NCBI GenBank assembly: GCA_903932685.1
Contig: CAIZGX010000059.1
Span: 1-44,983, forward strand
Length of the DNA: 44,983 nucleotides
Direction: 5' to 3'
From: an uncultured Bacteroidota bacterium
GTDB lineage: Bacteria; Bacteroidota; Bacteroidia; Flavobacteriales_D; Sanyastnellaceae
The notes under the pieces were generated by a model, which saw nothing but the letters and a program-made list of their open reading frames with translations, did not search any database and had not been told where the DNA came from. Positions 16,822-42,402 of this stretch are shown piece by piece. Each line of letters opens with the position of its first letter. Position 1 is the first letter of the stretch. The translations under genes were made by a program, and so were the position numbers.

Positions 16822-16843
16822 CACAAATATCTTTGCTGTGAAA

Positions 16844-17989
16844 TTAAGGCTTTTCAACCACGTGCTGAAAAGTTTCTATGGTTTTAGAAATAATTTTCGA
16901 CCAAATAAATTTCGATTGAATAGTTGTCATTGCATTTGCAGAAAGACATTCCACCTGCTCTGCGTTCAGTGAGAGAGCTGCTTCAATCGCACTTTTAATC
17001 GCGGAGGCGCTTTTTGGCTGAAATATTATTCCGTTGGTGGGTGTTACCAGCTCACACACTGCCCCAACGTCAGTAGCAAGCGAAACAAGGCCTCGACTCA
17101 TTCCCTCTAAAATAACATTGGGCATTCCCTCTGAATGAGAAGGAGTAATGAGAAAAGTATGCTCGTCAAAAATTTCATTCAATCCATTTACGTTTTTCAC
17201 CTCACCGTAATAACGAACATTCGCACGATTCAATTTTTTCGAAGGAGGAATTGCTCCGACAAATGAAATTTCTAATTCGGGCATGGATGCAACTACCTGC
17301 ATAAGTTCTTCAATTCCCTTTCTTCTTTCATATCGACCAACAAAAAGAAATTTTGAATTCACTGGAAGGTTTCTTTTCTCGAGCAAAGTGTTGTCGCTAA
17401 CAGCACCGGGAATAACTAATACTTTTGATTCAGGAATTCCAATACCATTCAAAAGTGAGGTGATTTTACCTCCATAAGAGATGCAGTAATCTGCTTGATT
17501 TAAGTTCCATTTTGCGGGTGACTTCAATAAGTATGCTTTCAGTCGTTCTGCGAATGAAGCTTGTTGTTGAAACATTTCCAAACCATGAAAATTCACCAAA
17601 ATTGGACCTGTTTTGACCGTGCGCTTAATTCGTTGCTGAAGCAAGTTCCATCCGCAGAATCCCTTTACATAAATTAAATCGAACGTATGAAGCTTGTCTT
17701 TAAGCAAAGTAGTAATTGCAAAAGAATATTGATAGGATTCCTTAATGTAATGTCCTGGCATGCCTGTAGATTCAGGGAATCTAAGGGTATGAATGGTTAA
17801 GTGTTTTGAATTTTCGAATAGTCTGTTCACTTCTTCATTTTTAGGAAGTGAACTTTTTCCGTAGACGCAATGAACAAGGGTTACCTCATGTTCAAGTTTC
17901 AACAGTTCATTACACAAATTGAAACTGTGTCGCTGCATTCCGCCAATGACGTATGGTGTAATACCATCGGTGAGCAAACAGATGTTCAT
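16844..17989 (-). CDS. Glycosyltransferase, GT4-type
   Basis: The 381-residue product has a complete GT4 pattern. The N-terminal MNICLLTDGITPYVIGGMQRHS carries the glycine-rich loop, 'FLFVGRYERRKGIEEL' marks the start of the C-terminal domain, and HSEGMPNVILEGMSRG holds the EX7E motif. It probably adds one sugar of the repeat unit from a nucleotide donor at the cytoplasmic membrane face. It begins inside the last codons of the upstream glycosyltransferase (ATGA overlap, 17986-17989). Sugar specificity is not readable. Confidence 0.92.
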   Translation of the reverse strand: MNICLLTDGITPYVIGGMQRHSFNLCNELLKLEHEVTLVHCVYGKSSLPKNEEVNRLFENSKHLTIHTLRFPESTGMPGHYIKESYQYSFAITTLLKDKLHTFDLIYVKGFCGWNLLQQRIKRTVKTGPILVNFHGLEMFQQQASFAERLKAYLLKSPAKWNLNQADYCISYGGKITSLLNGIGIPESKVLVIPGAVSDNTLLEKRNLPVNSKFLFVGRYERRKGIEELMQVVASMPELEISFVGAIPPSKKLNRANVRYYGEVKNVNGLNEIFDEHTFLITPSHSEGMPNVILEGMSRGLVSLATDVGAVCELVTPTNGIIFQPKSASAIKSAIEAALSLNAEQVECLSANAMTTIQSKFIWSKIISKTIETFQHVVEKP

Positions 17990-19167
17990 TGTAATGATTT
18001 TATTTGTTGAAGAACGTTTTGTGCATTGGCTCTCCAGGTGTGCTTTTCTAAAACTTTTTGTTGGAATTTTCGCGCTTTTATTTGAAGTTCATCAACAGCT
18101 GTTATTGAAGCCAGAAGTCCTTCTTGAAATGCGATGTCGTTGTCTTCAAATAACACACCTTCTTCATTAGACATAACATCGGAAATTCCGGGTTCATTGA
18201 CGGCTAGAATTGTTTTGCCAATCGCAGCGTATGCGAACAACTTCACTGGAGAACAATACCATTTAGTGTTCGGCAATGTAAGTATGTCCATGGCTGAAAT
18301 GTAATTGTAAATGTCTTCTTTTGGAACAGAACCCGTGAAGTGAACGCGTGAAGAAATCCCAAGGTCGTTGGCGAGTTTTTTTAATTCAGGTATGAGGTAC
18401 CCGTCGCCAACAATAAGTATGGCAACGTCAGTGTAATCTAATGTTGAAACCCCTTTAATGAGTCTATCTACACCGTGATAAGGAAAAATTGACCCCACAA
18501 AACCAAATACAGTTACTTCTGAAAGATTATACTTTTTATTGATCTCTTCGATGCGTGATTCGTTGATTTGTATTTCGTTTTTTTCTATTGCATTCGGAAC
18601 AACGGCACATTTGCTCGCGCTTAATGCGTAGCGTTCAATGAGGTAAGTTTGAAGTGAGCTGGTTACAGGTAGAACTAAGTCTGCCGATTGAAGTAAGGAC
18701 CTTAGTTTATTCTTTCCAATAAGGCCAATGAGAGACGAAGTTTTTTCAAAGGCTTTGACCTCTTCCTCGAAGGGTGCGTTAATCTCAACAATGTGTTTTA
18801 TGTTGAAGTAAGAAAGAACCTTTACACTGCCGTTGCTCATCCAGGCAGAGCGCTCATAAACAAGATCTGGCTGAAAGGATTCAATGGTAAATTGAAGTTC
18901 TTTAGCTGCATGTTTATCGAATCGAATTTGCTGAATTTCTTTGAGTGTTCTCCACAGAATTTTCGGAATGAATAGCTTCGCTATTGATTTTAGATTGAAT
19001 GAAGAATCGTTTTTTACCAGGTAAGACGGGGCTTTTCCCATCACTAAAATTTCAACCTTGTGTCCTTCTTCTTGAAACCCATTTATCATCCCGCGCATGT
19101 GACTCCCGTAGCCAGTTGAAGCTTCGAGGTATAAGGTTGGGTGGGGAGAATAGAATAAAATCTTCAT
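17986..19167 (-). CDS. Glycosyltransferase, GT4-like with altered catalytic-site motif
   Basis: The 393-residue GT-B protein starts MKILFYSPHPTLYLEASTGYGS, and 'VFGFVGSIFPYHGVDRLI' lies near residue 220. The nucleotide-sugar region reads TKWYCSPVKLFAYAAIGKT. Family members usually have SPLKLFEYMA here, so the glutamate of KLFEY is alanine. The usual EX7E pair is therefore not evident. This could shift donor handling or mean reduced activity. The gene sits three bases downstream of its neighbour and overlaps the next by four, so it is plainly part of the operon. The fold call is secure; activity and specificity are open. Confidence 0.85.
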   Translation of the reverse strand: MKILFYSPHPTLYLEASTGYGSHMRGMINGFQEEGHKVEILVMGKAPSYLVKNDSSFNLKSIAKLFIPKILWRTLKEIQQIRFDKHAAKELQFTIESFQPDLVYERSAWMSNGSVKVLSYFNIKHIVEINAPFEEEVKAFEKTSSLIGLIGKNKLRSLLQSADLVLPVTSSLQTYLIERYALSASKCAVVPNAIEKNEIQINESRIEEINKKYNLSEVTVFGFVGSIFPYHGVDRLIKGVSTLDYTDVAILIVGDGYLIPELKKLANDLGISSRVHFTGSVPKEDIYNYISAMDILTLPNTKWYCSPVKLFAYAAIGKTILAVNEPGISDVMSNEEGVLFEDNDIAFQEGLLASITAVDELQIKARKFQQKVLEKHTWRANAQNVLQQIKSLQ

Positions 19168-19170
19168 GAA

Positions 19171-20424
19171 TCATTGAAAGGTATTCATGTGATTTAACAT
19201 TTCATTCACACGGAAATTAAGGGAATTGTCTACGCTAGCTTCTTGTTTAAAATCACGCGGACTGTGTGGCTGATTTTTAAGCAGCGAGTGGAAGTAAGTT
19301 TCCCAAGATATTCCTCTGTTTTCTTCTTCAATGCTCTTCAACACTTCGCCGCTAGCACCGAGGTACAGATAGGGTGTTCCTAAGGTTTGGTATTCGAAAT
19401 ATTTCGTGGTGAAGAAATCTTTGTTGTGATCTGCGAGAAGAATGATACACCAATGGGCTTGGGCAATGCGGTCTTCAATCTTTTTTCCAATGGAGTCGGA
19501 GATGCGCACGCAGGGATGATGCTTGAAAATTGCTTTTATTTTGTTGAAACTCGAGGAGTGAAAGTTTATATTCAGTCGCTCGTATAGCGCTGTATTAAAC
19601 TCTCTAAGCTTTGTTAAATCCTTTGCGAGCTGCTCGAGGTAAGGGTCAGTATCAATATAAATTTCCCCTCCGTATTCAATCGTTATATTACTTGAAGAAA
19701 AACCGAATGATTGTTCGGTTAGTTTTGGTTCTGAATGAAAATGTTTTAGATGGTAGAATTTTTTATTCTTTGTTGAAATCAAATTCAATGAAGTGAAATG
19801 CTCAAGTATTTGCATTGCTGGCGACGACAGCACTGTCGCATGTTCAAGCACACTGGATGCTTTTTGCACTTCTTCTTTCATTTTTTCTGGACTTAAAAGA
19901 GGCATGCCGTAGTTTCTCGCATTCAGCCAAGGATCGCGAAAATCGGCCCAGTATTTTATAGAAGGATGTTCTTTCTTCCATTCAGCAACCACGCGAAGCA
20001 TATCCCAGGGAGCGCCAGTTGCGAATACCCATTCAATCGGATGTTTTTTTGCAAGTTCGTTCAACTTGGGAATAAGATGTTTTTCCCAACCAAGGCTTAT
20101 GTCGTAGGGTGTGCCTTTATAATTTTTTTTAACCGTATTGAGGGCTTTTCTGTAGTGAAGTTTTTCGAAAAAGTTTGACGGTTGTGTGAGTAGAATTTGG
20201 GGATAAACACGAGGCAATGAATGCACGAAAATGTTTCTGCTGTTCACCTCTTCGCTCCACACCGATTTGTCTGTATCGCTCAGAGCATCTGCTTTTACTG
20301 CATGAACAATACAATTTTGTTCAGCGAATTCTTTGGCTAATTTTCCCCAACGTCTTCCTCCAATTCCTTTGTTCGGAGGGAAGTCGTAATTGACAAGTAT
20401 GATATGTTTTTCAGTAGTTGGCAT
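19171..20424 (-). CDS. Glycosyltransferase-like protein, GT-B fold
   Basis: This 417-residue protein resembles the N-terminal half of Bacteroidota glycosyltransferases of the GT4-like group: FPPNKGIGGRRWGKLAKEF near residues 15-33, then GAPWDMLRVV and YWADFRDPWLNARNY, as in proteins annotated simply as glycosyltransferase. The C-terminal part (TTKYFEYQTLGTPYLYLG) corresponds to the sugar-nucleotide binding segment, with KYFEY in place of KLFEY. No signal peptide or membrane segment is apparent. It overlaps the aminotransferase upstream by 14 bases. It may transfer the special amino-uronic acid made by the three genes before it, but that is only suggested by position. Confidence 0.75.
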   Translation of the reverse strand: MPTTEKHIILVNYDFPPNKGIGGRRWGKLAKEFAEQNCIVHAVKADALSDTDKSVWSEEVNSRNIFVHSLPRVYPQILLTQPSNFFEKLHYRKALNTVKKNYKGTPYDISLGWEKHLIPKLNELAKKHPIEWVFATGAPWDMLRVVAEWKKEHPSIKYWADFRDPWLNARNYGMPLLSPEKMKEEVQKASSVLEHATVLSSPAMQILEHFTSLNLISTKNKKFYHLKHFHSEPKLTEQSFGFSSSNITIEYGGEIYIDTDPYLEQLAKDLTKLREFNTALYERLNINFHSSSFNKIKAIFKHHPCVRISDSIGKKIEDRIAQAHWCIILLADHNKDFFTTKYFEYQTLGTPYLYLGASGEVLKSIEEENRGISWETYFHSLLKNQPHSPRDFKQEASVDNSLNFRVNEMLNHMNTFQ

Positions 20425-21505
20425 TTACATGCTCGGCAACGTAAGCAATTTGATCGTGTGTGAGTTCCGAGTACATCGGAAGCGAAAGGATTTTTTTCGC
20501 TAGTCTTGCTGCAATCGGATAATCTGCTTCGGAATGATGAAAGCGCGAAGTGTAGCAAGGCATCAAAGGTAATGGAACAGGGTAGTGCACAGCAGTGTCT
20601 ATTTGTGCTTCTTTGAGTTTAGCCATGAGTCCGTCTCTGTCTTCATGCTGAATGACATAGAGGTGGAATACATGACGGAAGTTTTCACGTTCGTAAGGAC
20701 GTTGAACTTTTTCATTCAAAAGTGAATGATATAATTGCGCATTTTTTCTGCGTCCTTCAGTCCACGTTTCGAGATGCGGAAGCTTTGTGTTTAACACTGC
20801 TGCTTGAATGCCGTCCATGCGCGAATTTCTTCCTTCGCGGGTATGGTTGTGTTTACCTTCTTGTCCGTGATTCGCGATGGCTCGGGCGATTTTTGCAATA
20901 TTGTCATCGTTGGTAATCATAGCGCCCGCATCGCCGTAGGCTCCTAAGTTTTTACCAGGGTAAAAACTAAAACTTGCGGCGTGTCCGAAGGTTCCTGCTT
21001 TTTGTCCGTGGACGGTCGCAGCATGCGATTGCGCGCAGTCCTCTAGTACGAGGAGACCGTGTTTGATGGCAATCGTCATTAGCGCATTCATATCAACTGG
21101 ATTTCCATAGAGATGAACGGGAATGATTGCTTTGGTGCGATTTGTAATGCGCTCTTCAATTTTAGAAATGTCAATGAGGAGATGTTCATCAACATCTACA
21201 AATACAGGTATTCCACCTGCGGTTGTCACAGCTTCTGCAGTGCTAATCCAGCTAATTGCGGGAACAATTACTTCATCTCCAGGCTTTATACCCATTGCCA
21301 CCAAAAGAATTTCCAAGCTATCGGTACCGTTCGCACATGCAATGGTGTGCTTCATTCCCATGTAGTCACTGAAACTTTTTTCGAAAGTATCTGCAGCAGG
21401 ACCACCAATGAATGAAGTGTTTGAAATAACATTTGAAATGGCGCGATCCATTTCTGATTGAATGGATAAGTATTGCGCTTTAAGATCTACAAAAGGAATA
21501 TGCAT
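20411..21505 (-). CDS. wbpE: DegT/DnrJ/EryC1/StrS aminotransferase (WbpE-like)
   Basis: The 364-residue PLP-dependent sugar aminotransferase has the cofactor lysine at residue 185 in FYPGKNLGAYGDAG, as in the family. 'ANGTDSLEILL' (residues 58-68) and 'EDCAQSHAA' (155-163) are the conserved phosphate- and ring-binding segments. With the WbpB- and WbpD-like genes directly upstream, the likely reaction is amination of UDP-2-acetamido-2-deoxy-3-oxo-glucuronate at C3 using glutamate. Its ATG overlaps the WbpD-like stop as TAATG. The family includes many sugar specificities, so the WbpE call rests mainly on context. Confidence 0.85.
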   Translation of the reverse strand: MHIPFVDLKAQYLSIQSEMDRAISNVISNTSFIGGPAADTFEKSFSDYMGMKHTIACANGTDSLEILLVAMGIKPGDEVIVPAISWISTAEAVTTAGGIPVFVDVDEHLLIDISKIEERITNRTKAIIPVHLYGNPVDMNALMTIAIKHGLLVLEDCAQSHAATVHGQKAGTFGHAASFSFYPGKNLGAYGDAGAMITNDDNIAKIARAIANHGQEGKHNHTREGRNSRMDGIQAAVLNTKLPHLETWTEGRRKNAQLYHSLLNEKVQRPYERENFRHVFHLYVIQHEDRDGLMAKLKEAQIDTAVHYPVPLPLMPCYTSRFHHSEADYPIAARLAKKILSLPMYSELTHDQIAYVAEHVNANY

Positions 21506-21963
21506 TAACGTATTTTTTTTGCGGGATTTCCGACATAAACCCCCGATTCAGTAATGTTTTTTGTGACCACAGCACCTGCACCAATCACAACGTTATCGCA
21601 AACGCTAACAGGCAAAAGCGTAACATTCGACCCAATTGAAACGTTATTTCCAATTTCAGTGGAAGACCATTTCGTTTTGTCATTTCCCGAAGGTCCACCG
21701 TCTTTGAATAAATCGTTCGTGAACATAACACCGTGTGCAACGAAGCAGTCCGATCCAATAGTGACCAATTCACAAATGAAAGTATGACTTTGAATGCGCG
21801 TGCGGTCTCCGATTTTTACTCCTTTTTGAATTTCAACGAAGGGCCCAATGAACACATCGTTTCCAATTTCACACTCGTATAAATTAACAGGTTCAACAAC
21901 GGTAACACCTGTTCCAAATTGAACGTCACGAATCTGTGCGGTATGCTTTTTCACTTCGTTCAT
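21505..21963 (-). CDS. wbpD: Left-handed beta-helix N-acetyltransferase (WbpD-like)
   Basis: The 152-residue product is made of hexapeptide repeats throughout (for example 'VFIGPFVEIQKGVKIGD' and 'VSIGSNVTLLPVSVCDNVVIGAGAVV'), forming a left-handed parallel beta helix that uses an acetyl-coenzyme A donor. It ends YVGNPAKKIR, a usual close for these enzymes. Between the dehydrogenase and aminotransferase genes it should acetylate the 3-amino group to give UDP-2,3-diacetamido-2,3-dideoxy-glucuronic acid. It overlaps the dehydrogenase by four bases and the aminotransferase by one. The size fits WbpD/WlbB. Confidence 0.87.
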   Translation of the reverse strand: MNEVKKHTAQIRDVQFGTGVTVVEPVNLYECEIGNDVFIGPFVEIQKGVKIGDRTRIQSHTFICELVTIGSDCFVAHGVMFTNDLFKDGGPSGNDKTKWSSTEIGNNVSIGSNVTLLPVSVCDNVVIGAGAVVTKNITESGVYVGNPAKKIR

Positions 21964-22970
21964 TGCAGAATGTTGGCATAAATTTTTTCAATGGCATCAA
22001 CACTTCTAACACCTTCAATGCCTTCTACATTTTGGCCTATTCCTGTTTGAATTTCCTTCACAATTCCGGCAATCACTTTGTCGTGATTGCTGCTTGTACC
22101 TTGATATTTTCCGTAGGCATTTGGTTTGTCGTTGAAGTCAATGTTGCTATCTAACTCATGTCCTTCAACATTCCAAAATTCAATTTTATTGAGGTAGGCT
22201 CCTCCAATTTTTACACTTCCTTTTTCACCAATAATGGTGATACTTCCTTCGTAGTTTTTTTCATAAACACAGGTGGTCCAAACCAATGAACCGAGCGCTC
22301 CGTTTTCAAATTCCATAACAGCAACGCCGCTGTCTTCGGTTTCGATGTTGTGATTTTGTGTGGCTGCTTTGGCCTTCACGCTAACAACATTTCCACACCA
22401 CCAAATAAGAAGATCTATGAAGTGACTGGCCTGTGTGAAAAGGGCACCACCTTCTTTATTCAGCTTTCCTCTCCACGGAGAGTCGTCGTAGTACCCTTGG
22501 TAACGGTTCCACAACACATCACATTTCACCATGAAAATTTTTCCCAACCACCCTTCGCGAATGGCCTGCTCGGCAAGGATAACAGGAACATTGAATCTAT
22601 TCTGTTTCACCACCCATAATTTTTTTCCGCAGGCAGTTGCTGTATCGTTCATTCGATTTGCCTCTTCAACAGAGAGCGACATAGGTTTTTCAACCAGAAC
22701 ATTAAATCCTGCTTTCAATGCGGCAATGCTTTGCTCGGCATGAAGGGCATGTGGCGTAACTACATTAATGACATCTGCTTGAATATTCTTCAACATTTCA
22801 TCGAAAGAAGAATAGACAGGAATATTTCCGTATAGCTCAGAAAGTGCAACGGCCGATGGAATATGGCTATCACACAACGCAACAATTTCTATTTCCGGAT
22901 TAGCGTCTAAGACAGCAACGTGTCGCTTCCCAATACTTCCACATCCGACTACTGCAAACTTGATTTTCAT
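21960..22970 (-). CDS. wbpB: Gfo/Idh/MocA sugar dehydrogenase (WbpB/WlbA-like)
   Basis: This 336-residue NAD-dependent oxidoreductase has its Rossmann motif GCGSIGKRH at about residues 9-17, then the family lysine in EKPMSLS, then VKQNRFN, and a GGALFTQASHFIDLL region that holds the substrate-binding histidine. These features match the WlbA/WbpB group, which oxidises UDP-GlcNAcA at C3. ATG at 22970 is used; the longer frame begins with a TTG at 22988 and adds six residues. The order dehydrogenase, acetyltransferase, aminotransferase is the order of the known pathway genes. The supply gene (UDP-GlcNAc 6-dehydrogenase, WbpA) and the epimerase (WbpI) are not in the window. Confidence 0.9.
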   Translation of the reverse strand: MKIKFAVVGCGSIGKRHVAVLDANPEIEIVALCDSHIPSAVALSELYGNIPVYSSFDEMLKNIQADVINVVTPHALHAEQSIAALKAGFNVLVEKPMSLSVEEANRMNDTATACGKKLWVVKQNRFNVPVILAEQAIREGWLGKIFMVKCDVLWNRYQGYYDDSPWRGKLNKEGGALFTQASHFIDLLIWWCGNVVSVKAKAATQNHNIETEDSGVAVMEFENGALGSLVWTTCVYEKNYEGSITIIGEKGSVKIGGAYLNKIEFWNVEGHELDSNIDFNDKPNAYGKYQGTSSNHDKVIAGIVKEIQTGIGQNVEGIEGVRSVDAIEKIYANILQ

Positions 22971-22988
22971 CGGTTGCAAAGTAATCAA

Positions 22989-24302
22989 TCATTTTTGAAT
23001 TTCAGCGACCTTTTGCCCAAGGAATTCCTTCAGTGGATATTTTTCGAGTCGACATCTTTCGAAGAATTCCTTTTCAGTTTCCTCATTGGCAAGTATGAGC
23101 GCAGCTTCAAGAGATTCGTAATCTGAAAGACACAGGTTTTTCAATGGGCTTCCTTCCAACGGGAAGGAAGTTTGAAAATTCGTTCCAATGAACGTTTTGT
23201 AGCCCATCGACAATCGCTCGAAAAGCAAGGTGGAATAAGCCATTACACCTACGTTTACCTTGAAAAAGGTATCACTCGACTTCATATCAAGGGGTGCAAT
23301 CGAAGTACTTGTTCCTTTGAAAAGAGAAGTGTAGTGAGATTCGAATTCTTTGTCTTTCCTCTCCTTCGGATGCGGGAAAATGATCAATTGAAATTCAGTG
23401 TGTTTTTCTAAGAACGTCTTCAATGAATTTAACAAGAAGAGCTCATTTTCTTGAATGCCCTTGCCCATTCCGAAGTCGGCATGTCCATCTTTCCTTCTTA
23501 TCCATTCGCCATGTGAATAGAATCCTATGATGTTTTTAGGTGGAAGGGGCACGTTCTCGTAATGTGAGGCATAGCGCATGTGCTGCTCTGGTGGCCAATT
23601 CGAAAACTCTTTCACGTACCAATGCTTGAAACCAGGAAGTTCTTCCAATTGATAGGCGCTAGAGAAGACAACTTCGTCAGCAATCATGAAGGTGTGATGC
23701 TCGAATAAAGGCCCCGGAGAGGGTATTTTCGTGACGTGAATTTCTTTTTCGATAAGTAAAAAGGCCAACGTGTTGCTGTCTTTTTCAAACGGGGTGAAAT
23801 CGAAGAACTGGTTAGAGTTGAATTTCACAAGAGCGGACTCAATAGCATTCCATTCTACCACTTCACGAATCAAGAGGGAAAGATTCAATCTTCGCGAATC
23901 GAAAAGGCACTGCAATGAAATGCGAAATGCAAAACGATGAAAGCGAAATGGAAATTGCGGAACAGAAAGCTCCTCACGAACCAAAACATTTAAGGTTTTA
24001 GTTGAGGTGTTTTTTGAAATATACTCCCGCGCTATATCGGCTTGGTTGGATGTGGAAACCAAAATAAACGGGACATTCGGTGAATGATCTGGAGTAAGTT
24101 GTTTTCTTGAAACAATGCGTTTCCATTCTTTGAAACCGATAAATATATCTTTTCTAGCGCTGCTCGGAAGGCGATAGGTTAAATCATGAAGAAGTCTATG
24201 CTGAAGCATACGCAGCTTGATGTCTTCCGACGCCCTCATGGGACGCTTCAGAAGTCCTTTCACGAAACGAATGGCAGTATTTAGGTTAGACATTTGATTC
24301 AT
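22989..24302 (-). CDS. Uncharacterised polysaccharide-locus protein, possibly GT-B-like
   Basis: I do not recognise this 437-residue protein. It has no signal peptide or membrane segment. Residues about 270-420 contain stretches that recall the second domain of capsule and teichoic-acid type transferases: IIGFYSHGEWIRRKDGHADFG, 'LIIFPHPKERKDKEF', and 'MAYSTLLFERLSMGYKTFI', where the histidine-proline and the S-T-L-x-x-E pattern are reminiscent of polysialyltransferase or CDP-glycerol transferase folds. The N-terminal 150 residues show nothing familiar. It sits second in the operon, overlapping the ThiF-like gene by up to 17 bases (alternative ATG at 24293), just before the nucleotide-sugar module. 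A transferase role is a guess from context and these patterns. Confidence 0.7.
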   Translation of the reverse strand: MNQMSNLNTAIRFVKGLLKRPMRASEDIKLRMLQHRLLHDLTYRLPSSARKDIFIGFKEWKRIVSRKQLTPDHSPNVPFILVSTSNQADIAREYISKNTSTKTLNVLVREELSVPQFPFRFHRFAFRISLQCLFDSRRLNLSLLIREVVEWNAIESALVKFNSNQFFDFTPFEKDSNTLAFLLIEKEIHVTKIPSPGPLFEHHTFMIADEVVFSSAYQLEELPGFKHWYVKEFSNWPPEQHMRYASHYENVPLPPKNIIGFYSHGEWIRRKDGHADFGMGKGIQENELFLLNSLKTFLEKHTEFQLIIFPHPKERKDKEFESHYTSLFKGTSTSIAPLDMKSSDTFFKVNVGVMAYSTLLFERLSMGYKTFIGTNFQTSFPLEGSPLKNLCLSDYESLEAALILANEETEKEFFERCRLEKYPLKEFLGQKVAEIQK

Positions 24303-29997: not shown

Positions 29998-30516
29998 ATG
30001 AAACGGATCTATTTACTTCTCATACTCTTGGCTTCGTGCCATTGGATATCTGCGCAGCAGATTGATGAAGGAGATTCACGTGCGATGATTCAGGCCAATT
30101 TCATTTATCAGTTTGCGGTTAATAGCAATTGGCCGGTTGAAATGAAGAAAGGAAAATTTCTGATTGTGGTTTATGGAAACGACGCTGTCTACAAACATGT
30201 TCTAGAAAAGTATGCGATGAAACCGGTAGGTGCGCAAACTATTGAGGTGCAATCTTGGGCCGATTACAAACCGGGATTAACGAGCCACATTGTTTTTGTA
30301 GATAAATCGAAAAAGGCCGACTTTGCGAGAATCATTAAAGAGGTGAAGGGTAAGAACACCTTAGTCGTGACAAACTGGGAAGGTGCCTTAGGAAGTGGGG
30401 CAGCGATAAATTTTAAAACAGTGGACAATTCTATTCGATATGAATTGAGTGAGGCAGCATTATCGGAGAAGAAGATTACTCCGGGAAATAAAATTTTACA
30501 ATGGAAAGTTCAATAG
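29998..30516 (+). CDS. YfiR-like periplasmic protein (DUF4154)
   Basis: The 172-residue product has a clear signal peptide (MKRIYLLLILLASCHWISAQ). The mature part starts with a short acidic segment, then IQANFIYQFAVNSNWPVE, matching the opening helix of the YfiR family ('K-A-x-F-I-Y-x-F...WP'), followed by a Rossmann-like alternation ending KILQWKV. In Pseudomonas, YfiR is a periplasmic repressor that holds the diguanylate cyclase YfiN inactive. The mature protein here lacks cysteines, so the disulfides of that protein are absent. ATG at 29998 is chosen over the GTG three codons earlier because it gives the clean signal peptide. A TPR-like protein follows after one base and a sensor phosphatase after that. 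Confidence 0.85.
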   Translation: MKRIYLLLILLASCHWISAQQIDEGDSRAMIQANFIYQFAVNSNWPVEMKKGKFLIVVYGNDAVYKHVLEKYAMKPVGAQTIEVQSWADYKPGLTSHIVFVDKSKKADFARIIKEVKGKNTLVVTNWEGALGSGAAINFKTVDNSIRYELSEAALSEKKITPGNKILQWKVQ

Positions 30517-30517
30517 T

Positions 30518-31405
30518 ATGAAGCACACATTCTTACTTTTTTTGATTTTACTGGGTGTGGCTCAAATGGCCTACAGTCAAGTAAATCCAATTGTAGCGAA
30601 AGCCGCTGAATTGTGCGATGAAAAGAAATACGAAGAGGCGCTTGCACAAATTGACGAGGGTTTTAAGTTGGCCAGTTTGAACTCAGATCCGAATGCATGG
30701 TTTGTAAAAGGATTTATTTTAAAAGAGCTTTACAAACAAAAAGAAGCCGATCAACGTCAAAGTAACTACAGATACCGAAGTGTAGCTGCGTTGAGGAAAG
30801 CACGCGAATTCGATTCGAATTTAGAATTCGCATCGAACATAGATGCCGCTTTTCAGTATATAGCTTTCACATATTTCAATGATGCGTTATTACGTTCCGT
30901 TGAAATGGATAACGAATCGGAGAATGAGCCTATCGACCTATTCAAAAAGTTTGAAGAGCTTTATTCAGGTTCAGATGTCGAACTTAGAGATTTGAAGTTA
31001 GAATTCAATAGCAAAATGGCAGAGGGGCATTACCGCAACTGGATTAAAAACACGGAGGACACTCATCATTACGCGTTGTGTTTGGAGTATTATTCGAAAG
31101 TTCTTTCCTTGGATAATAGAAACTGCACAGCCAACTTGAACTTGGCCATTGTGAACTACAATCAAGGTGTGTTCATGATTCGTAAGATTGGTGCACAGAC
31201 CGACATGATGGACTTAATTTCCATTCAAGACGAAAGTGTGAAAAAATTTAAGGCAGCCATTCCATTTGCTCAGCAGGCCTTTGCTTCATGTACCCCTGCT
31301 CCAACCAACTACAAGGTACTTATGTTTGTGAATCGCGCGTTGGGAAGGGAAGAAGAGTATCTTCGATTGAAGAAAGAGTCAGAAAAAAAATTCAAATCAA
31401 ATTAA
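30518..31405 (+). CDS. Secreted TPR-like repeat protein
   Basis: This 295-residue protein has signal peptide MKHTFLLFLILLGVAQMAYS. The mature part is helical. 'AAELCDEKKYEEALAQIDEGF' near residues 28-48 is TPR-like, as is 'YALCLEYYSKVLSLDNRNCTANLNLA' around 190-215. ATG at 30518 is used; an in-frame upstream codon at 30449 would lie inside the YfiR-like gene and bury the signal peptide. It starts one base after that gene's stop and ends 9 bases before the phosphatase start. Its likely place is the periplasm, where TPR helices usually mediate protein contacts. Its partner may be the YfiR-like protein or the sensor region of the phosphatase. No enzyme motif is present. Confidence 0.8.
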   Translation: MKHTFLLFLILLGVAQMAYSQVNPIVAKAAELCDEKKYEEALAQIDEGFKLASLNSDPNAWFVKGFILKELYKQKEADQRQSNYRYRSVAALRKAREFDSNLEFASNIDAAFQYIAFTYFNDALLRSVEMDNESENEPIDLFKKFEELYSGSDVELRDLKLEFNSKMAEGHYRNWIKNTEDTHHYALCLEYYSKVLSLDNRNCTANLNLAIVNYNQGVFMIRKIGAQTDMMDLISIQDESVKKFKAAIPFAQQAFASCTPAPTNYKVLMFVNRALGREEEYLRLKKESEKKFKSN

Positions 31406-31414
31406 TTGCAATCC

Positions 31415-32881
31415 ATGAATTGGTTCTTCAATAAGAAGTATCGTCTTGGATTTGGCTTCGGTGTCATCATATTCATCGTTGCTGGTACGTTGGTCATGAC
31501 CATGATTACTTTGCAGCGGAGTTATGATATCAATCGGAAAATTAATGACAAGTATGTTCCATCTATTGGACGCTTGCAAGACCTCGAGAGCTATACGCTT
31601 CGTTCAAAAGACTTAATTAAAGAATGGGCATTTGTTCAGCGGGTAGAAGAAGATCTTCATCGCAAAGAGATGAAGGCAATTAGTGACAGTTCACTTACTA
31701 ATTCATGGACACGACTCAAAGAAGTTAAAAGCAATTTCAGCAAGGAAGAACAACAGAAGCTCGATTCTTTAGAAGTCAGAATAGCTGTCATGTTGGTTCA
31801 GTACAAAGTAGTTCAAGAACTGTTACCCACCTTCGACAGTTACAGCAATCCAATTGCGTTAATGGAAGCTGAGTCATATTTTATTGAAGGCAGTGGAATA
31901 CCGCTTGTGGTTGAAGAAGCAGAGGCTATTCTAAATGAATTGCGCACAAAGCAAACCGAACGAATGAATAGGGAAATTGAAGAAATGAATGTTCAATTCT
32001 CTCGTTTAACCGGTGTTCTTGTGGTGGTTTCTTTGTTCGTTTTATTTGCGGGAATTGCCATTGCTTATTTCACAACGAAACTGAGAAAGCAAAAAGAAGA
32101 ATCTGATGTTCAAAAGGAACAATTGAATTTGTTGTATCACGATTTAACTGACAGCATCAATTACGCGCAAAGACTTCAAAATACAATCTTGCCGAACATT
32201 GGCGCGGTAAGACAAATCTTCAACAAGAGTTTTGTTTTTTATGTTCCTAAGGCTGTTGTAAGTGGCGATTTTTATTGGTTTAAGAATGTAGGGGGCAGGA
32301 AATTATTTGCTGCTGCAGACTGCACGGGACATGGCGTTCCTGGTGCATTCATGAGTTTGGTAGGTCACAACTTTTTGAATCATGTGACTAAAGTTTTTCT
32401 TGACCCGTCACAAATTCTAAATAGCGTTAATCGTTTAGGTACAGAGGTCCTGCGCAACAATAACACCGGTGTTCGAGACGGTATGGACATTGCACTTTGT
32501 GCAATCGATGAAAAGGAAATGATGTTGGAATATTGTGGTGCGAATATTCCGCTTTACGTTGTCAGAAAGAATGAACTTATTGAATTGGCTCCAACCAAGC
32601 GAAGCATTGGAACCTTCGGTGAACGCGGTGAGTCTTTTGAAACACAGAAGTTTCAATTGGAAAAGAATGATATGGTATACGCTTGCAGTGACGGTTATGC
32701 AGATCAATTCGGTGAAGAGACCAACAAGAAATTCATGCGGAAGAAATTCAAGGAAATGCTCGCATCTATTTCAACTTTAGAAATTGACACACAAGAAAAA
32801 ACCCTTCACGAAACGTTTTACGCTTGGAAGGGTTCAGTAGAACAAACCGATGACCTTTTAGTGATCGGAATTCGAATCTAA
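31415..32881 (+). CDS. Membrane-bound SpoIIE-type PP2C phosphatase with extracytoplasmic sensor region
   Basis: The 488-residue protein starts with a membrane segment at about 11-32, then a helical extracytoplasmic region (about 33-197) that resembles a four-helix-bundle sensor, then a second membrane segment at about 198-219 and a short coiled coil (LRKQKEESDVQKEQLNLL). The cytoplasmic PP2C domain follows: YAQRLQNTILP at about 250-260, VSGDFYW at 282-288, ADCTGHGVPGAFMS at 301-314, 'VRDGMDIALC' further on and DDLLVIGI near the end, so the metal-binding acidic residues are present. It would dephosphorylate serine or threonine on a partner protein, such as an anti-sigma-factor antagonist, in response to a periplasmic signal. 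ATG at 31415 is used in place of TTG at 31406. No HAMP motif is obvious. Confidence 0.9.
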   Translation: MNWFFNKKYRLGFGFGVIIFIVAGTLVMTMITLQRSYDINRKINDKYVPSIGRLQDLESYTLRSKDLIKEWAFVQRVEEDLHRKEMKAISDSSLTNSWTRLKEVKSNFSKEEQQKLDSLEVRIAVMLVQYKVVQELLPTFDSYSNPIALMEAESYFIEGSGIPLVVEEAEAILNELRTKQTERMNREIEEMNVQFSRLTGVLVVVSLFVLFAGIAIAYFTTKLRKQKEESDVQKEQLNLLYHDLTDSINYAQRLQNTILPNIGAVRQIFNKSFVFYVPKAVVSGDFYWFKNVGGRKLFAAADCTGHGVPGAFMSLVGHNFLNHVTKVFLDPSQILNSVNRLGTEVLRNNNTGVRDGMDIALCAIDEKEMMLEYCGANIPLYVVRKNELIELAPTKRSIGTFGERGESFETQKFQLEKNDMVYACSDGYADQFGEETNKKFMRKKFKEMLASISTLEIDTQEKTLHETFYAWKGSVEQTDDLLVIGIRI

Positions 32882-32885
32882 TTTA

Positions 32886-33725
32886 TTACGAAGCCAGGCT
32901 TGATCGGTCTGCTATATAGGTATCAACCGGGTTCACACACAACACAGGTATTTGTGCATCGTTAGTGATTACGTGCTGCTCGTAGCTTGAGTTGAATACA
33001 TTTAACAGGGAGCTCTCGTAGAAATTCATAATACAAATCAAATCCGCTTCAACTGCTGCGGAGTATTTCAATAAAGATTTGACGAATGATCCTTCTGACT
33101 TCGTTTCGGTAATTTCAACTTCAACAGGAATGTCCTTTGAGCTCAAATATTCTACGGCGTAATTTAAATTACGATCCAGTTGATTTTTTAGGAACTCATC
33201 GGTTTCATTCGGAGAAATCAAATACACTTTCGAGTTAAAGTATTTCGCTACATCGCGAACTGCGCTTAATTTTTGCTTGGTTTCTTTGTGCAAATCTAAT
33301 GGCACAACCAAACGGTGATATCCGTGCTCACGAATGGTTCTCTCTTGAACAACGATGAAAGGAATAGAACTTTCAGTAACAATTTTTAATGCGCGACTGC
33401 CAGTCATGAATTGCAAGCCGCGAGCCCCATGTGTCCCCATAATAATAAGTGCTGCATCCATTTCTGTTGCAGCCTTATCAATGTCTTCAAATATGTTCCC
33501 GATTCGAACGTGAGCGTGAATCTCAACGCTATTTTCAACACGAACGCGATCTTTAAGTGCTTCTAACTTCAAGCGTACTTCAGAAACTTGTTTCTTGTTT
33601 TCTACAATGTGAATCAGATGAATATCGGCAAGAATTGTTTTGCCCATCAAAAGTGCGTGTTCAATGGCAATATCGCTCACTTTAGTGAAATCGACAGGCA
33701 CTAAAATTTTCTTAGAAAATCCCAT
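32886..33725 (-). CDS. Universal stress protein, two tandem Usp domains
   Basis: The 279-residue protein has two UspA domains. The first, residues 1-145, starts KKILVPVDFTKVSDIAIEHALL and contains IIMGTHGARGLQFMTGSRALKIV, which fits the ATP-binding G-x2-G-x9-G(S/T) pattern. The second, from about 150, begins YHRLVVPLDLHKETKQKL and is more divergent; its glycine loop is not evident, so only one ATP site is expected. Tandem Usps are common in Bacteroidota and act in stress or energy sensing in the cytoplasm. It is convergent with the phosphatase gene, with four bases between stops. Confidence 0.93.
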   Translation of the reverse strand: MGFSKKILVPVDFTKVSDIAIEHALLMGKTILADIHLIHIVENKKQVSEVRLKLEALKDRVRVENSVEIHAHVRIGNIFEDIDKAATEMDAALIIMGTHGARGLQFMTGSRALKIVTESSIPFIVVQERTIREHGYHRLVVPLDLHKETKQKLSAVRDVAKYFNSKVYLISPNETDEFLKNQLDRNLNYAVEYLSSKDIPVEVEITETKSEGSFVKSLLKYSAAVEADLICIMNFYESSLLNVFNSSYEQHVITNDAQIPVLCVNPVDTYIADRSSLAS

Positions 33726-38577: not shown

Positions 38578-41148
38578 TTGAGAAAGACGCTGAAATATAA
38601 TCTCCCAAATATCCGAGCAATGTTATTTGCTCTTTCGTTCATGGCGTCTTTATTCGTTGCGCCAGTTCTTCAGGCTCAAGTTGAATTAGGCACTACCATC
38701 GACTACGCAGAACCGCGTAAGATGAAGATTGCAGGAATTACTGTGATGGGCGCAGAATATACCGATGCACAGGCAATATTGCTTTTTTGTGGTTTGAAGG
38801 TGGGTCAAGAGTTAATGATTCCAGGAGACGAAATTGCCGATGCACTTCGCAAGCTTTGGAAGAATCAGTTGTTCTCGGCAATTGACATTCGTTTGGCAGA
38901 AGCTCGAGGAGATGATGTTTTCTTGGTTATTGTGGTAAAGGAACTTCCGAAACTCGGAGTGTTCAAGTTTGAAGGAATTAAAAAAGGCGACGCAGATAAC
39001 ATTCGCGAAAAAATGAAAATCCGTTCAGGAAATATCGTGAACGAAAACCTAAAAGCTACTGCGACCAATATTATCAAGGATTTTTATGTGGAAAAAGGGT
39101 ACTACAACGCCAAAGTAAATATCGTTGATAAGCCTTATCCAAATTTGCCTAACGCCGTTGAATTAACCTTCGATATTGAGCGTGGCAATAGAATTAAGAT
39201 TGAAGAAATTGAATGGGTAGGGGCAGATAAGATGTCCATAGCGACGTTGAATCGCTCAATGAAGAAAACGAAGAAAGCTGCTTTCTATCACGTATTCAAA
39301 TCATCAAAATTTTTAGAAGAAGAATACGAAGAAGATAAAGTGGCGGTAATAGCCCGTTATAATAAAGAAGGTTTCCGCAACATGAGAATTGTAAAAGATT
39401 CTATCTACGCTGTTGGACCCGAGCGTTTGAAGATTCGAATTACACTGGATGAAGGAAATAAATTTTATTTCAGAAACATCTCGTTCATTGGAAATACAAA
39501 ATACAGAAGTAACTCTCTCGATTCAATTCTGAATATCAAGAAAGGTGATGTTTACAACATGGAGGTTTTGCAAACCCGTTTGAATATGAATCAAAGCGGA
39601 CGCGATGTTGCTTCATTGTATACAGACGATGGGTATTTGAATTTTTACGCCTACCCGGTAGAATCTTTGGTTCCACCAGACAGTATAGACATTGAGGTGC
39701 GAATGGGTGAAGGTCGTCAGTATCGGATAGGTGTTGTCAGCGTTTCTGGAAATTCGAAAACAAATGACCACGTTATATATCGTGAAATCCGAACACGTCC
39801 TGGCGATTTATTCAATCGCTCCGATTTGATTCGTTCACAACGCGAATTAGCAAACTTGAATTATTTCAGCCAAGAAGCATTTGATATTCGAACGAACCCA
39901 AGACCTGACGAAGGTCTAGTAGATTTAGAATATGTTGTTGAAGAAAAGCCTTCCGACCAAATTGAATTGTCAGGTGGTTGGGGAGGTGGACGCGTTGTTG
40001 GATCATTAGGATTGAGCTTCAACAATTTCAGCATGCGTAATTTCTTCAAGAAGGAAGCATGGAGCCCACTTCCAACAGGCGATGGTCAGAGACTTTCTAT
40101 ACGCGCAATGAGTAATGGCGCTTTCTTCCAATCATACAACCTAAGCTTTACCGAGCCTTGGTTGGGTGGAAAAAGACCGAACTCATTATCGGTTTCCGGC
40201 TACCACAGTGTTCAGTCGAATGGACAGGCCAAGTTCATAAATGATGTATTGAACCCGACCCGACAATCCCTAATTATTACAGGTGCGTCTGTTGTTTTCG
40301 GACAGCGTTGGCAGAAGCCAGATGACTGGTTCTTGTTCTTTGGTGGATTATCTTATCAGCATTTCGATTTGAACAATTACGGATCATTCTTCTCATTCAA
40401 CAACGGATACTCGAACAACCTAGCTGCTAACTTTACCATAGAAAGAAGTTCGTTGTCTGAAACGATTTATCCTACTTGGGGTTCGAAAATTACCTTGAGT
40501 TCGAAGTTTACATTGCCTTACACTACCATTGGAGAGAATTTCTTGGGTAAGGAGTATGATTATGCGACTATGACTGACCAGCAAAAAGTAGACTGGGTAG
40601 AATATTATAAGATTAAGTTCACTGCCAATTGGTACACATCTTTGAACAAACACAAAACGAACAAATTGGTTTTGCATACGCATGCTGGGTTTGGATTCCT
40701 CGGTGCTTACAATAAGAATCTCGGTCAATCTCCGTTTGAGAGATTTTATTTGGGAGGAGTTTTCTTAAGTGGCTTCTTACTTGATGGTCGTGAGATTGTG
40801 AATTTGCGCGGTTACGATGATTTGTCTTTAACCATGCCAAGTGATCGTGTAGGGGCTCCGGTAATTACGAAGTATGGTGCTGAATTGCGCTACCCAATTT
40901 CATTGAATCCCCAAGCAACAATTTTTGCATTGGCTTTTGCTGAAGCAGGAAGGACGTGGGTAGATTTCTCGGATTACAATCCGTTCAATTTGTACAAGTC
41001 AGTAGGTGGCGGACTTCGAATCTTTTTGCCTATGTTTGGACTGTTAGGATTCGATTACGGATGGAGATTGAACGATCTGCCTAATGCGCCCAACATGGCA
41101 CCAGGTCAGTTTCACTTCAGTATAGGTATGAACATGGGTGAACTTTAA
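38578..41148 (+). CDS. bamA: Outer-membrane protein assembly factor BamA
   Basis: This 856-residue Omp85 protein inserts beta-barrel proteins into the outer membrane. A signal peptide is followed by POTRA domains from about residue 45 to 470 (for example 'KMKIAGITVMGAEYTDAQAI', 'VFKFEGIKKGDADNIREKMK', 'FYFRNISFIGNTKYRSNSL' and 'YRIGVVSVSGNSKTNDHVIY') and a 16-strand barrel. LRGYDD near residue 745 corresponds to the conserved (V/I)RG(F/Y) loop 6 motif. The start is uncertain: TTG at 38578 gives a positively charged n-region and lies 5 bases after uppS. ATG at 38620 starts directly with the hydrophobic MLFALSFMASLF. The longer form is used. Two OmpH/Skp-type chaperone genes follow. Confidence 0.95.
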   Translation: MRKTLKYNLPNIRAMLFALSFMASLFVAPVLQAQVELGTTIDYAEPRKMKIAGITVMGAEYTDAQAILLFCGLKVGQELMIPGDEIADALRKLWKNQLFSAIDIRLAEARGDDVFLVIVVKELPKLGVFKFEGIKKGDADNIREKMKIRSGNIVNENLKATATNIIKDFYVEKGYYNAKVNIVDKPYPNLPNAVELTFDIERGNRIKIEEIEWVGADKMSIATLNRSMKKTKKAAFYHVFKSSKFLEEEYEEDKVAVIARYNKEGFRNMRIVKDSIYAVGPERLKIRITLDEGNKFYFRNISFIGNTKYRSNSLDSILNIKKGDVYNMEVLQTRLNMNQSGRDVASLYTDDGYLNFYAYPVESLVPPDSIDIEVRMGEGRQYRIGVVSVSGNSKTNDHVIYREIRTRPGDLFNRSDLIRSQRELANLNYFSQEAFDIRTNPRPDEGLVDLEYVVEEKPSDQIELSGGWGGGRVVGSLGLSFNNFSMRNFFKKEAWSPLPTGDGQRLSIRAMSNGAFFQSYNLSFTEPWLGGKRPNSLSVSGYHSVQSNGQAKFINDVLNPTRQSLIITGASVVFGQRWQKPDDWFLFFGGLSYQHFDLNNYGSFFSFNNGYSNNLAANFTIERSSLSETIYPTWGSKITLSSKFTLPYTTIGENFLGKEYDYATMTDQQKVDWVEYYKIKFTANWYTSLNKHKTNKLVLHTHAGFGFLGAYNKNLGQSPFERFYLGGVFLSGFLLDGREIVNLRGYDDLSLTMPSDRVGAPVITKYGAELRYPISLNPQATIFALAFAEAGRTWVDFSDYNPFNLYKSVGGGLRIFLPMFGLLGFDYGWRLNDLPNAPNMAPGQFHFSIGMNMGEL

Positions 41149-41155
41149 AAAACGA

Positions 41156-41809
41156 ATGATGAAAGCAAATTCAACGATCAAATTCATTTTTTCTTTTGTG
41201 CTTATTGTTTCGACATTGTCGTTGAGCGCTCAAAAATTCGCATACATAGATTCGAAGTACGTCTTATCGCACATGCCCGAATATATGGCAGCCCAAAAGC
41301 AGATCAACGAACTAAGTGCCGAATGGCAGGCTCAGGTGGAACAGAAATACACAGCCATTGAGCAATTGGAAAAGTCATTTCAAGCCGAGAAAATATTGCT
41401 TACAGAGGATATGAAGAAGAAGCGTGAGGCAGATATCAACGAGCGCAGAGAAGAGGCGAAGCAATATCAAAAATCGAAATTTGGAGTGGAGGGAGATTTA
41501 TTTAAAAAGCGTGAAGAGTTAGTGGCACCTATTCAAGAGCAAATATTTCAAGCAATTGAAGACATTGCTTCTCAATCTCAATACATGGTTGTGTTTGATA
41601 AGGCCAGTCACTCGAACATGTTATACACCAATCCGAAGCACGACATTAGTGATAAAGTACTGAAGAAAATGGGATTGAAACCAGGAGAAGTATTGGATAA
41701 AGACGAAGACGATAAGGAAGATTCTCAAGAAAAACCGGGTGAGAAACCAGGCACCGGTACCGGTCGTCCAGGAAATGATCGTCCAAGTTCACCGGGGAAA
41801 GGCAACTAA
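41156..41809 (+). CDS. ompH: OmpH/Skp family periplasmic chaperone with long charged tail
   Basis: The 217-residue protein has a signal peptide (STIKFIFSFVLIVSTLSLSAQ). The mature part starts KFAYIDSKYVLSHMPEYMAAQ, the usual OmpH opening, then a long coiled-coil arm (about 45-115) and YMVVFDKASHSNMLYTNPKHD near the C-terminal core. It then carries an extra tail of about 40 residues, first acidic (KDEDDKEDSQE) and then glycine- and proline-rich (KPGTGTGRPGNDRPSS). Skp-type trimers keep unfolded outer-membrane proteins soluble on the way to BamA. ATG at 41156 (or 41159) is used; the frame also opens with GTG at 41138, overlapping bamA. Confidence 0.93.
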   Translation: MMKANSTIKFIFSFVLIVSTLSLSAQKFAYIDSKYVLSHMPEYMAAQKQINELSAEWQAQVEQKYTAIEQLEKSFQAEKILLTEDMKKKREADINERREEAKQYQKSKFGVEGDLFKKREELVAPIQEQIFQAIEDIASQSQYMVVFDKASHSNMLYTNPKHDISDKVLKKMGLKPGEVLDKDEDDKEDSQEKPGEKPGTGTGRPGNDRPSSPGKGN

Positions 41810-41859
41810 TGCGTATTTTTGGTACTGTCATTGAATAGAAGAAAAAAAAACATACAATC

Positions 41860-42402
41860 ATGAAGAAGACAATTTTAGCAGCACTATTTATTTCATTGGG
41901 ATTTGGTGCATTCGCGCAGAAGTTCGCGCACGTGGATCGCCAGGCAATCCTTTTGCAAATGCCTGCAATGAAAGGCGTTCAAGCCGATATGGAAACAGCA
42001 AAGAAATCCTTTGAAGGAGAATATGTGGTTATGCAAAAAGAGCATGACGATAAAGTTGCCGAGTACGAAACAAAATCAAAAATGGCGGTTAGCGCAGGCG
42101 GATGGCCAGAAGCAATTCGTCAAAGCAAAGCACAGACTATAGCAGACCTAGAGCAGAACATGATGGATTTCCAGCAGACAGCAAACGATGAGTTGCAGCA
42201 ATTGCAAGACGGTTTGTTGAAGCCATTGGTTGAAGAGTTCGATGCGGCAGTTGCTAGAATTGCAAAGGCTGGCGGATATACATACGTATTCGATCTTGGA
42301 GCAGGAAACTTGGTATACGTTGGTGGTGAAGATCTCGGAGACAAATTGAAAGCTGAATTAAAAATTCCAGCAGCTTCTCCAACTACGCCAACACAGAAAT
42401 AA
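41860..42402 (+). CDS. ompH: OmpH/Skp family periplasmic chaperone, second copy
   Basis: The 180-residue product has a clean signal peptide (MKKTILAALFISLGFGAFAQ), then KFAHVDRQAILLQMPAMKGVQ, a coiled coil from about 40 to 130, and 'GGYTYVFDLGAGNLVYVG' in the core, the standard Skp/OmpH build. It is a paralogue of the gene before it but lacks the long tail, ending in AASPTTPTQK. It should also escort outer-membrane proteins to BamA. An A-rich stretch precedes the ATG, and a strong terminator follows at 42421. Confidence 0.94.
   Translation: MKKTILAALFISLGFGAFAQKFAHVDRQAILLQMPAMKGVQADMETAKKSFEGEYVVMQKEHDDKVAEYETKSKMAVSAGGWPEAIRQSKAQTIADLEQNMMDFQQTANDELQQLQDGLLKPLVEEFDAAVARIAKAGGYTYVFDLGAGNLVYVGGEDLGDKLKAELKIPAASPTTPTQK

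Follow-up and report, generated by a model that had tools for sequence, protein, structure and literature searches.

A conserved gene trio in an order of Bacteroidota encoding a YfiR-like protein, a secreted TPR-like protein and a SiaA-like membrane phosphatase

Background

The YfiBNR system (TpbB/HmsCDE) of Pseudomonas, Escherichia and Yersinia combines a periplasmic protein of the DUF4154/YfiR fold with a two-span inner-membrane signalling enzyme and a further exported protein. The accessible part of one source (PMC4887326) describes YfiR as a repressor of YfiN that acts via the periplasmic PAS domain of the latter, and YfiB as the protein that sequesters YfiR. The present study concerns three adjacent genes of similar layout in a stretch of 44,983 nucleotides, referred to as the window, from an uncultured Bacteroidota bacterium of the Sanyastnellaceae (contig CAIZGX010000059.1, assembly GCA_903932685.1). 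The trio encodes a YfiR-like protein, a TPR-like protein and a SpoIIE/PP2C membrane phosphatase, and differs from YfiBNR in several respects, 1) the output is a PP2C phosphatase rather than a diguanylate cyclase, in a genome with no GGDEF match, 2) the sensor is a four-helix bundle, whereas that of YfiN is PAS-type, 3) the third protein is TPR-like instead of an OmpA-like lipoprotein such as YfiB and 4) the redox cysteine pairs of YfiR are missing.

The second described system is the SiaABC(D) threonine phospho-switch of Pseudomonas aeruginosa, with which the locus shares a homologous PP2C domain and coiled-coil lead-in, a SiaC protein with an NTSS site and a SiaB-family kinase. The Pseudomonas phosphatase is encoded with siaB, siaC and siaD, while the phosphatase studied here is encoded with DUF4154 and TPR genes, has a different N-terminal half and is accompanied by no SiaD-type cyclase that could be found. 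The equivalog cut-offs of the system were missed by SiaA (164.8 of 700), SiaC (71.9 of 150) and SiaB (49.4 of 225), the subfamily cut-off for the SiaB family being passed. In a third arrangement, found in Bacteroidota, DUF4154 also adjoins a two-span sensor protein, but there the output is a histidine kinase, the sensor is CHASE8, followed by HAMP, and a long exported neighbour takes the place of the TPR gene. The trio resembles YfiBNR in its input and SiaABC in its output, without belonging strictly to either system. The literature searched contained one paper naming DUF4154 and no paper joining YfiR with SpoIIE, its four papers on SiaC, phosphatases and Bacteroidetes were, by title, apparently not about this system, and nothing in it combined three of the terms SpoIIE, Flavobacteri-, partner switching and TPR.

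Results

Organization and conservation of the trio

An earlier note on this DNA had proposed that the three genes constitute one signalling operon, in which the periplasmic logic of YfiR ends in a phosphatase and may feed a partner-switching pathway. The open reading frames, given here from ATG to the end of the stop codon, are all on the plus strand and are separated by 1 and 9 bases:

29998..30516, plus strand: YfiR-like (DUF4154/PF13689) periplasmic protein, 172 residues; PF13689 at 79.9 bits, YfiR fold in the model of a relative
30518..31405, plus strand: secreted TPR-like helical-repeat protein, 295 residues, without a lipobox; TPR matches below cut-off, helices with a high predicted local distance difference test (pLDDT) score in AlphaFold2 (AF2)
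31415..32881, plus strand: membrane SpoIIE/PP2C phosphatase, SiaA-like, 488 residues; PF07228 at 74.6 bits, NCBIfam SiaA, PDB 6k4e
31415..32080, plus strand: sensor unit of the phosphatase, comprising a first transmembrane span (TM1), an extracytoplasmic four-helix bundle (approximately residues 34-198) and a second span (TM2); AF2 and fold matches
32294..32875, plus strand: catalytic SpoIIE/PP2C domain of the phosphatase; PF07228, residues 294-487

Consensus scans for promoters and terminators returned nothing better than shuffled sequences. Conservation was followed in 60 relatives, 349 genomes of the order, 395 genomes across the phylum and 80 named SpoIIE loci, the last being Bacteroidota metagenome-assembled genomes, several of them labelled Flavobacteriales, Crocinitomicaceae or Salibacteraceae. 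Genomes, loci and contigs are designated G, L and C. DUF4154 was found in 51 of the 60 relatives. The complete ordered trio was present in 47 of them, and in four of the 47 a contig end cuts off part of the phosphatase. Another two DUF4154-bearing relatives (G008 and G024) were compatible with contig breaks, and G042 and G054 had a CHASE8 histidine kinase instead. The proposal of a single signalling operon is supported.

In the order, the sensor was present in 170 and DUF4154 in 179 of the 349 genomes; 162 genomes had both, 162 had neither, eight had the sensor without DUF4154 and 17 had DUF4154 without the sensor (Fisher p 1e-67, ignoring relatedness). Among the matches listed, which included 150 to the sensor, a DUF4154 gene lay within 5 kb for 131, and in 130 of these 131 cases it was upstream on the same strand at a distance of 882-1900 bp. 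For the other 19 listed sensor matches, the genome had no listed DUF4154 in 15 cases and a listed but distant one in four. Seven of the 19 were inspected: G603 had the full trio, a TPR gene was followed by a contig end in G534, G611, G675, G499 and G540 (contig C32), and G041, which has a GAF output but lacks DUF4154, was a true exception. The 19 also included trios in G010, G017 and G036 and a contig break in G024. A sensor match of at least 60 bits occurred in 14 of the 80 SpoIIE loci, and 12 of these 14 had DUF4154, the other two (L154 and L178) starting at a contig end. No DUF4154 match was found in the remaining 66 loci, some of which are on short contigs; in one locus without DUF4154, L198, similarity to the window phosphatase likewise begins near residue 8. 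Across the phylum, 39 of the 395 genomes had DUF4154 and 20 had the sensor, mostly as weak matches, so that the trio is apparently for the most part a feature of this order. It does extend past close relatives, whereas the earlier note had named a lack of such conservation as a result that would refute its proposal.

Inherited gene order might explain part of the linkage, since genes flanking the trio are themselves common to many loci (outside the genus, kbl lies near 21, an oxidase gene near 22 and a universal stress protein (Usp) gene near 25). If gene order were all that held the trio together, the YfiR-like and TPR proteins would have unrelated envelope roles. We regard that as very improbable, considering that the trio was retained without any of seven tested flanking genes in L080, L100, L114 and L115, that sensor and DUF4154 co-occur so strongly, and that DUF4154 is found fused to SpoIIE and to kinases and, in a rearranged second class, divergent to the phosphatase (see below). 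Given its conservation throughout the order, the arrangement is beyond chance, and the three genes very probably work as one module.

The YfiR-like protein

The first gene product has a signal peptide at about residues 1-19, and its PF13689 match covers residues 31-168 against a Pfam cut-off of 24.9 bits. The model of a relative (L172) has the YfiR fold (4zhu_B, Z 17.6, root mean square deviation 2.5 Å, 143 residues aligned). YfiR was not retrieved when PDB sequences were searched with a single DUF4154 sequence, and the relationship came from the fold comparison.

The only cysteine of the window protein, C14, is in the signal peptide, so that the mature protein has none and lacks the two conserved cysteine pairs that the accessible part of PMC4655355 gives for YfiR. 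The claim in the earlier note that redox cysteines are absent holds for this protein, and redox switching of it was ruled out. Among 53 DUF4154 domains, counted with four copies outside trios and omitting the L106 fusion, 26 had no cysteine, 19 had one and eight had two or three; the absence of cysteines is not general among DUF4154 domains.

The TPR-like protein

The N terminus of the second gene product resembles a signal peptide and has no lipobox cysteine, as judged by eye, and a Pfam scan of the protein gave no OmpA match. Its TPR matches were below the Pfam cut-off (17.7 bits vs 26.8). The AF2 model was confident and all-helical, and its fold resembles TPR proteins. In the 39 aligned members of the family, TPR_11 was matched in 17 and TPR-S in 14 (E<=0.01). 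The TPR gene is also present in locus L276. Tandem TPR genes were seen between DUF4154 and the phosphatase in G015, G016 and G034 (loci L077, L078 and L096).

The phosphatase

The aspartates of the PP2C motifs were invariant across 32 aligned phosphatase sequences. The SiaA PP2C structure 6k4e was the only PDB relative of the catalytic domain at E<=0.001 (E 6.3e-28, residues 233-487), and the NCBIfam SiaA model matched residues 233-488 only. Of the three SpoIIE proteins in the genome, this one had the best SiaA-model score, the others giving 73.6 bits (a receiver-domain protein) and no match; judging by sequence, neither of the others shares its two membrane spans.

Between the two spans, AF2 predicted a four-helix bundle, in which helices one and four extend into the membrane spans. 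No Pfam sensor family matched this bundle, and a search of PDB sequences with the sensor profile gave 22 chance-like rows, the best of which (8.4e-4) was a designed protein; here also the relationship came from fold comparison, which matched the periplasmic sensor 4k0d_B (Z 15.8, root mean square deviation 2.3 Å, 145 residues aligned), 3va9 (Z 15.4) and the ligand-binding domain of MCP2201 (7wrm_A, Z 14.7). P49 and W71 of the sensor were invariant in 28 alignment rows. The Pfam scan of the phosphatase revealed no CHASE8, HAMP or GGDEF domain. Because the sensor is a four-helix bundle without a CHASE8 match, the YfiR-YfiN interface is not simply transferable to this system.

A HAMP domain was matched in 29 of the 32 phosphatases of alignment A2 and was absent from the window phosphatase and four scanned congeners. 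In the alignment, the HAMP domain and the HAMP-like sequence that follows it after TM2 were missing from the window and G007 phosphatases. HAMP-type domains, present after TM2 in other trio phosphatases, are thus missing from the genus of the window (the window locus and L061-L068). Eight phosphatases of this genus are complete and have 488-489 residues; among the 60 genomes, complete phosphatases from the remaining trios have at least 585. In this genus, the bundle seems to act directly on the coiled coil.

A rival reading has the YfiR-like protein activate the phosphatase. A YfiR-like protein that bound a small molecule and docked on the four-helix bundle as an activator, in the way that periplasmic binding proteins engage chemoreceptors and kinases, with the TPR protein delivering or holding it, would give the same wiring with the opposite logic. 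The L172 model also fits 3lkv (Z 13.1) and the substrate-binding proteins 6k1x and 8wgl (Z about 11), the sensor resembles domains with which chemoreceptors and kinases bind their ligands, redox cysteines are absent from the window protein and weak binding of vitamin B6 or L-Trp by YfiR is reported in the accessible text of PMC4887326. However, the repressor YfiR is the closest fold (Z 17.6 vs 11-13) and the proposal posits a ligand where none is known, so that activation of this kind appears doubtful.

DUF4154 and the sensor with other partners

Several loci join DUF4154 to a transmembrane output in other ways. L106 is a natural fusion in a single open reading frame, with DUF4154 (residues 26-162), a coiled coil, a transmembrane span and SpoIIE (369-565). 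Seven open reading frames of 603-611 residues (L264-L270) have DUF4154 at the N terminus and HisKA and HATPase domains at the C terminus, the halves being joined, in those whose sequence was inspected, by an extended coiled coil and what looks like a single span. In the second class, L108 and L189, DUF4154 is divergent to a phosphatase of about 495 residues that bears the same sensor. In these two loci (L108:3948-5518 and L189:3322-4829), DUF4154 is followed by a gene for an exported protein of about 335 residues with no clear family. Inspection of 20 stretches from across the phylum showed DUF4154 often beside or fused to a histidine kinase, and it adjoins CHASE8-HAMP histidine kinases in L103, L113, L234, L243 and L246. 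The long exported protein beside the DUF4154-kinase genes is, by eye and unsearched, presumably a TonB-dependent receptor.

The sensor is not exclusive to DUF4154, because proteins that join it to a GAF or GAF-PAS output, of which there were four, mostly have no adjacent DUF4154; for the SpoIIE form the link is tight. The GAF forms had been considered as proof of a DUF4154 partnership and were dropped in that role, DUF4154 being adjacent in one of the four. The proteins in L237:6084-8081, L257, L258 and L271 carry the sensor with HAMP-GAF or HAMP-GAF-PAS and no recognised catalytic domain (L258 by sequence only).

The output side

The genome encodes one SiaC (PF09345, contig C9) and one SiaB-family DUF6272 protein (PF19788, contig C69), both over the Pfam cut-offs, and the latter passed the NCBI model for SiaB-family kinases (93.8 bits vs a cut-off of 85). 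The SiaC protein has the motif YFNTSSSK, which was aligned by eye with the T68 peptide of P. aeruginosa SiaC, LLYLNTSSIK, as given in the accessible part of PMC7647112. SiaC was found in 55 of the 60 relatives, namely in 48 of the 49 trio genomes vs 7 of the 11 others, and the numbers for SiaB were identical (uncorrected for relatedness); other SpoIIE proteins occur in most of those genomes. GGDEF was matched in two of the 60 relatives, with one match over the cut-off, and not in this genome, which makes an output of the YfiN or the SiaD type unlikely.

The genome also has a STAS match and an RsbW-like HATPase, one of each over the cut-off, so that the phosphatase could serve another substrate, for example this STAS-domain protein and RsbW-like kinase, or several serine/threonine phosphoproteins. 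SiaC and SiaB are, moreover, unlinked to the trio (contig C59) in this genome. Weighed against the SiaC distribution and the rank of the phosphatase as the best SiaA match among the three SpoIIE proteins, a substrate other than SiaC is unlikely, and SiaC is probably the one used. The possibility of a partner-switching pathway raised in the earlier note gains support from the SiaA-like phosphatase and from the SiaC and SiaB-family proteins.

In L123 (3308-6684), the genes for SiaC and for a 1008-residue ABC-ATPase/ABC2-membrane protein overlap at their 3' ends, and a similar-looking long gene is convergent with SiaC in L124, L126, L130 and L136.

Predicted contacts

The earlier note had suggested predicting a complex of the three proteins. 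Two pairwise chains were folded with AF2 rather than a ternary chain, since MAFFT aligned the TPR rows onto the DUF4154 region: the window TPR-sensor chain (A4, 22 rows) and the L172 DUF4154-TPR chain (A5, 27 rows). The A4 chain gave a pLDDT of 91.8 and a predicted TM score (pTM) of 0.54, and the A5 chain a pLDDT of 84.5 and a pTM of 0.72. By a simple calculation, two unplaced domains in either chain would give a pTM of about 0.5-0.6, and 0.72 corresponds to an inter-domain error of about 6-8 Å. The TPR-sensor value is near that of unplaced domains and therefore indicates no placement of this pair. For DUF4154 and TPR, the A5 value is a hint of contact, suggestive only, and the TPR protein, to which the earlier note had given no role, is thus a member of the only pair with such a hint. 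In a local trial of the A5 alignment, roughly 20 residues at the start of the TPR rows were out of place. Whether these two proteins touch is, on the models, an evenly balanced matter.

Neighbouring genes

A gene resembling a universal stress protein (32886-33725) lies tail to tail with the phosphatase gene; its relatives are those found near the trio in the 25 loci outside the genus. From inspection of the sequence, the minus-strand run at 10353-24302 presumably consists of glycosyltransferase-like and other surface-polysaccharide-like genes, and at 38578-42402 a gene resembling BamA presumably precedes two that resemble OmpH/Skp.

Discussion

The explanation that we favour, and consider probable as a whole, is that a YfiR-like and a TPR protein provide periplasmic input to a SiaA-like phosphatase that works with SiaC and SiaB. 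It builds on computed domains, folds, gene linkage, fusions, SiaB and SiaC presence and near-absence of GGDEF, to which it adds putative contacts, substrate, sign and stimulus. The YfiR-fold protein, which the TPR protein would bind or present, would act in the periplasm on the four-helix-bundle sensor. TM2 and the coiled coil would then relay the signal to the PP2C domain, with HAMP-type domains added in relatives and none in this genus. The active phosphatase would strip phosphate from the conserved threonine of SiaC, opposing the SiaB-family kinase. By analogy with the action of YfiR on YfiN, the preferred sign is one in which the YfiR-like protein holds the phosphatase in check, and the TPR protein may sequester or position the YfiR-like protein, the role of YfiB in Pseudomonas; repression rather than activation has about an even chance. 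The view in the earlier note that the logic of YfiR is here combined with a phosphatase output is supported.

Several observations weigh against this explanation, 1) the TPR-sensor pair was not placed by AF2, 2) pTM, taken without the predicted aligned error, is a weak proxy for contact, the rows of the alignments were unpaired, and A5 held one genuine DUF4154-TPR row and four trimmed copies, 3) direct action of DUF4154 on the sensor, for which the earlier note had named residues 33-197 of the phosphatase, is a putative contact, although the likelier case, 4) in the sensor proteins with a GAF or GAF-PAS output, DUF4154 is adjacent in L237 only, unlinked in G106 and G243 and missing from G041, 5) the L180 SpoIIE protein has a weak sensor match (36 bits) and no DUF4154 nearby, 6) one trio genome, G018, had no SiaC match and another, G002 (71% complete), had no SiaB match and 7) inherited gene order might account for part of the linkage.

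Conclusions

There is roughly an even prospect that DUF4154 is a general periplasmic input module for varied transmembrane outputs (cyclase, histidine kinase and PP2C phosphatase), in trans or fused, and that in this order it combines with the TPR protein to control a SiaA-like phosphatase, as an extracytoplasmic switch of three parts that is not yet described, driving a threonine phospho-switch where c-di-GMP (cyclic diguanylate) cyclases are almost absent. YfiR-like proteins have been studied as regulators of c-di-GMP; here, one is conserved where 58 of 60 relatives have no GGDEF match, and it is tied to a phosphatase. If the explanation is correct, it would supply the SiaABC-like phospho-switches, which many of these bacteria have, with an input that can be tested, and would assign a function to an unnamed operon that is conserved throughout the order.

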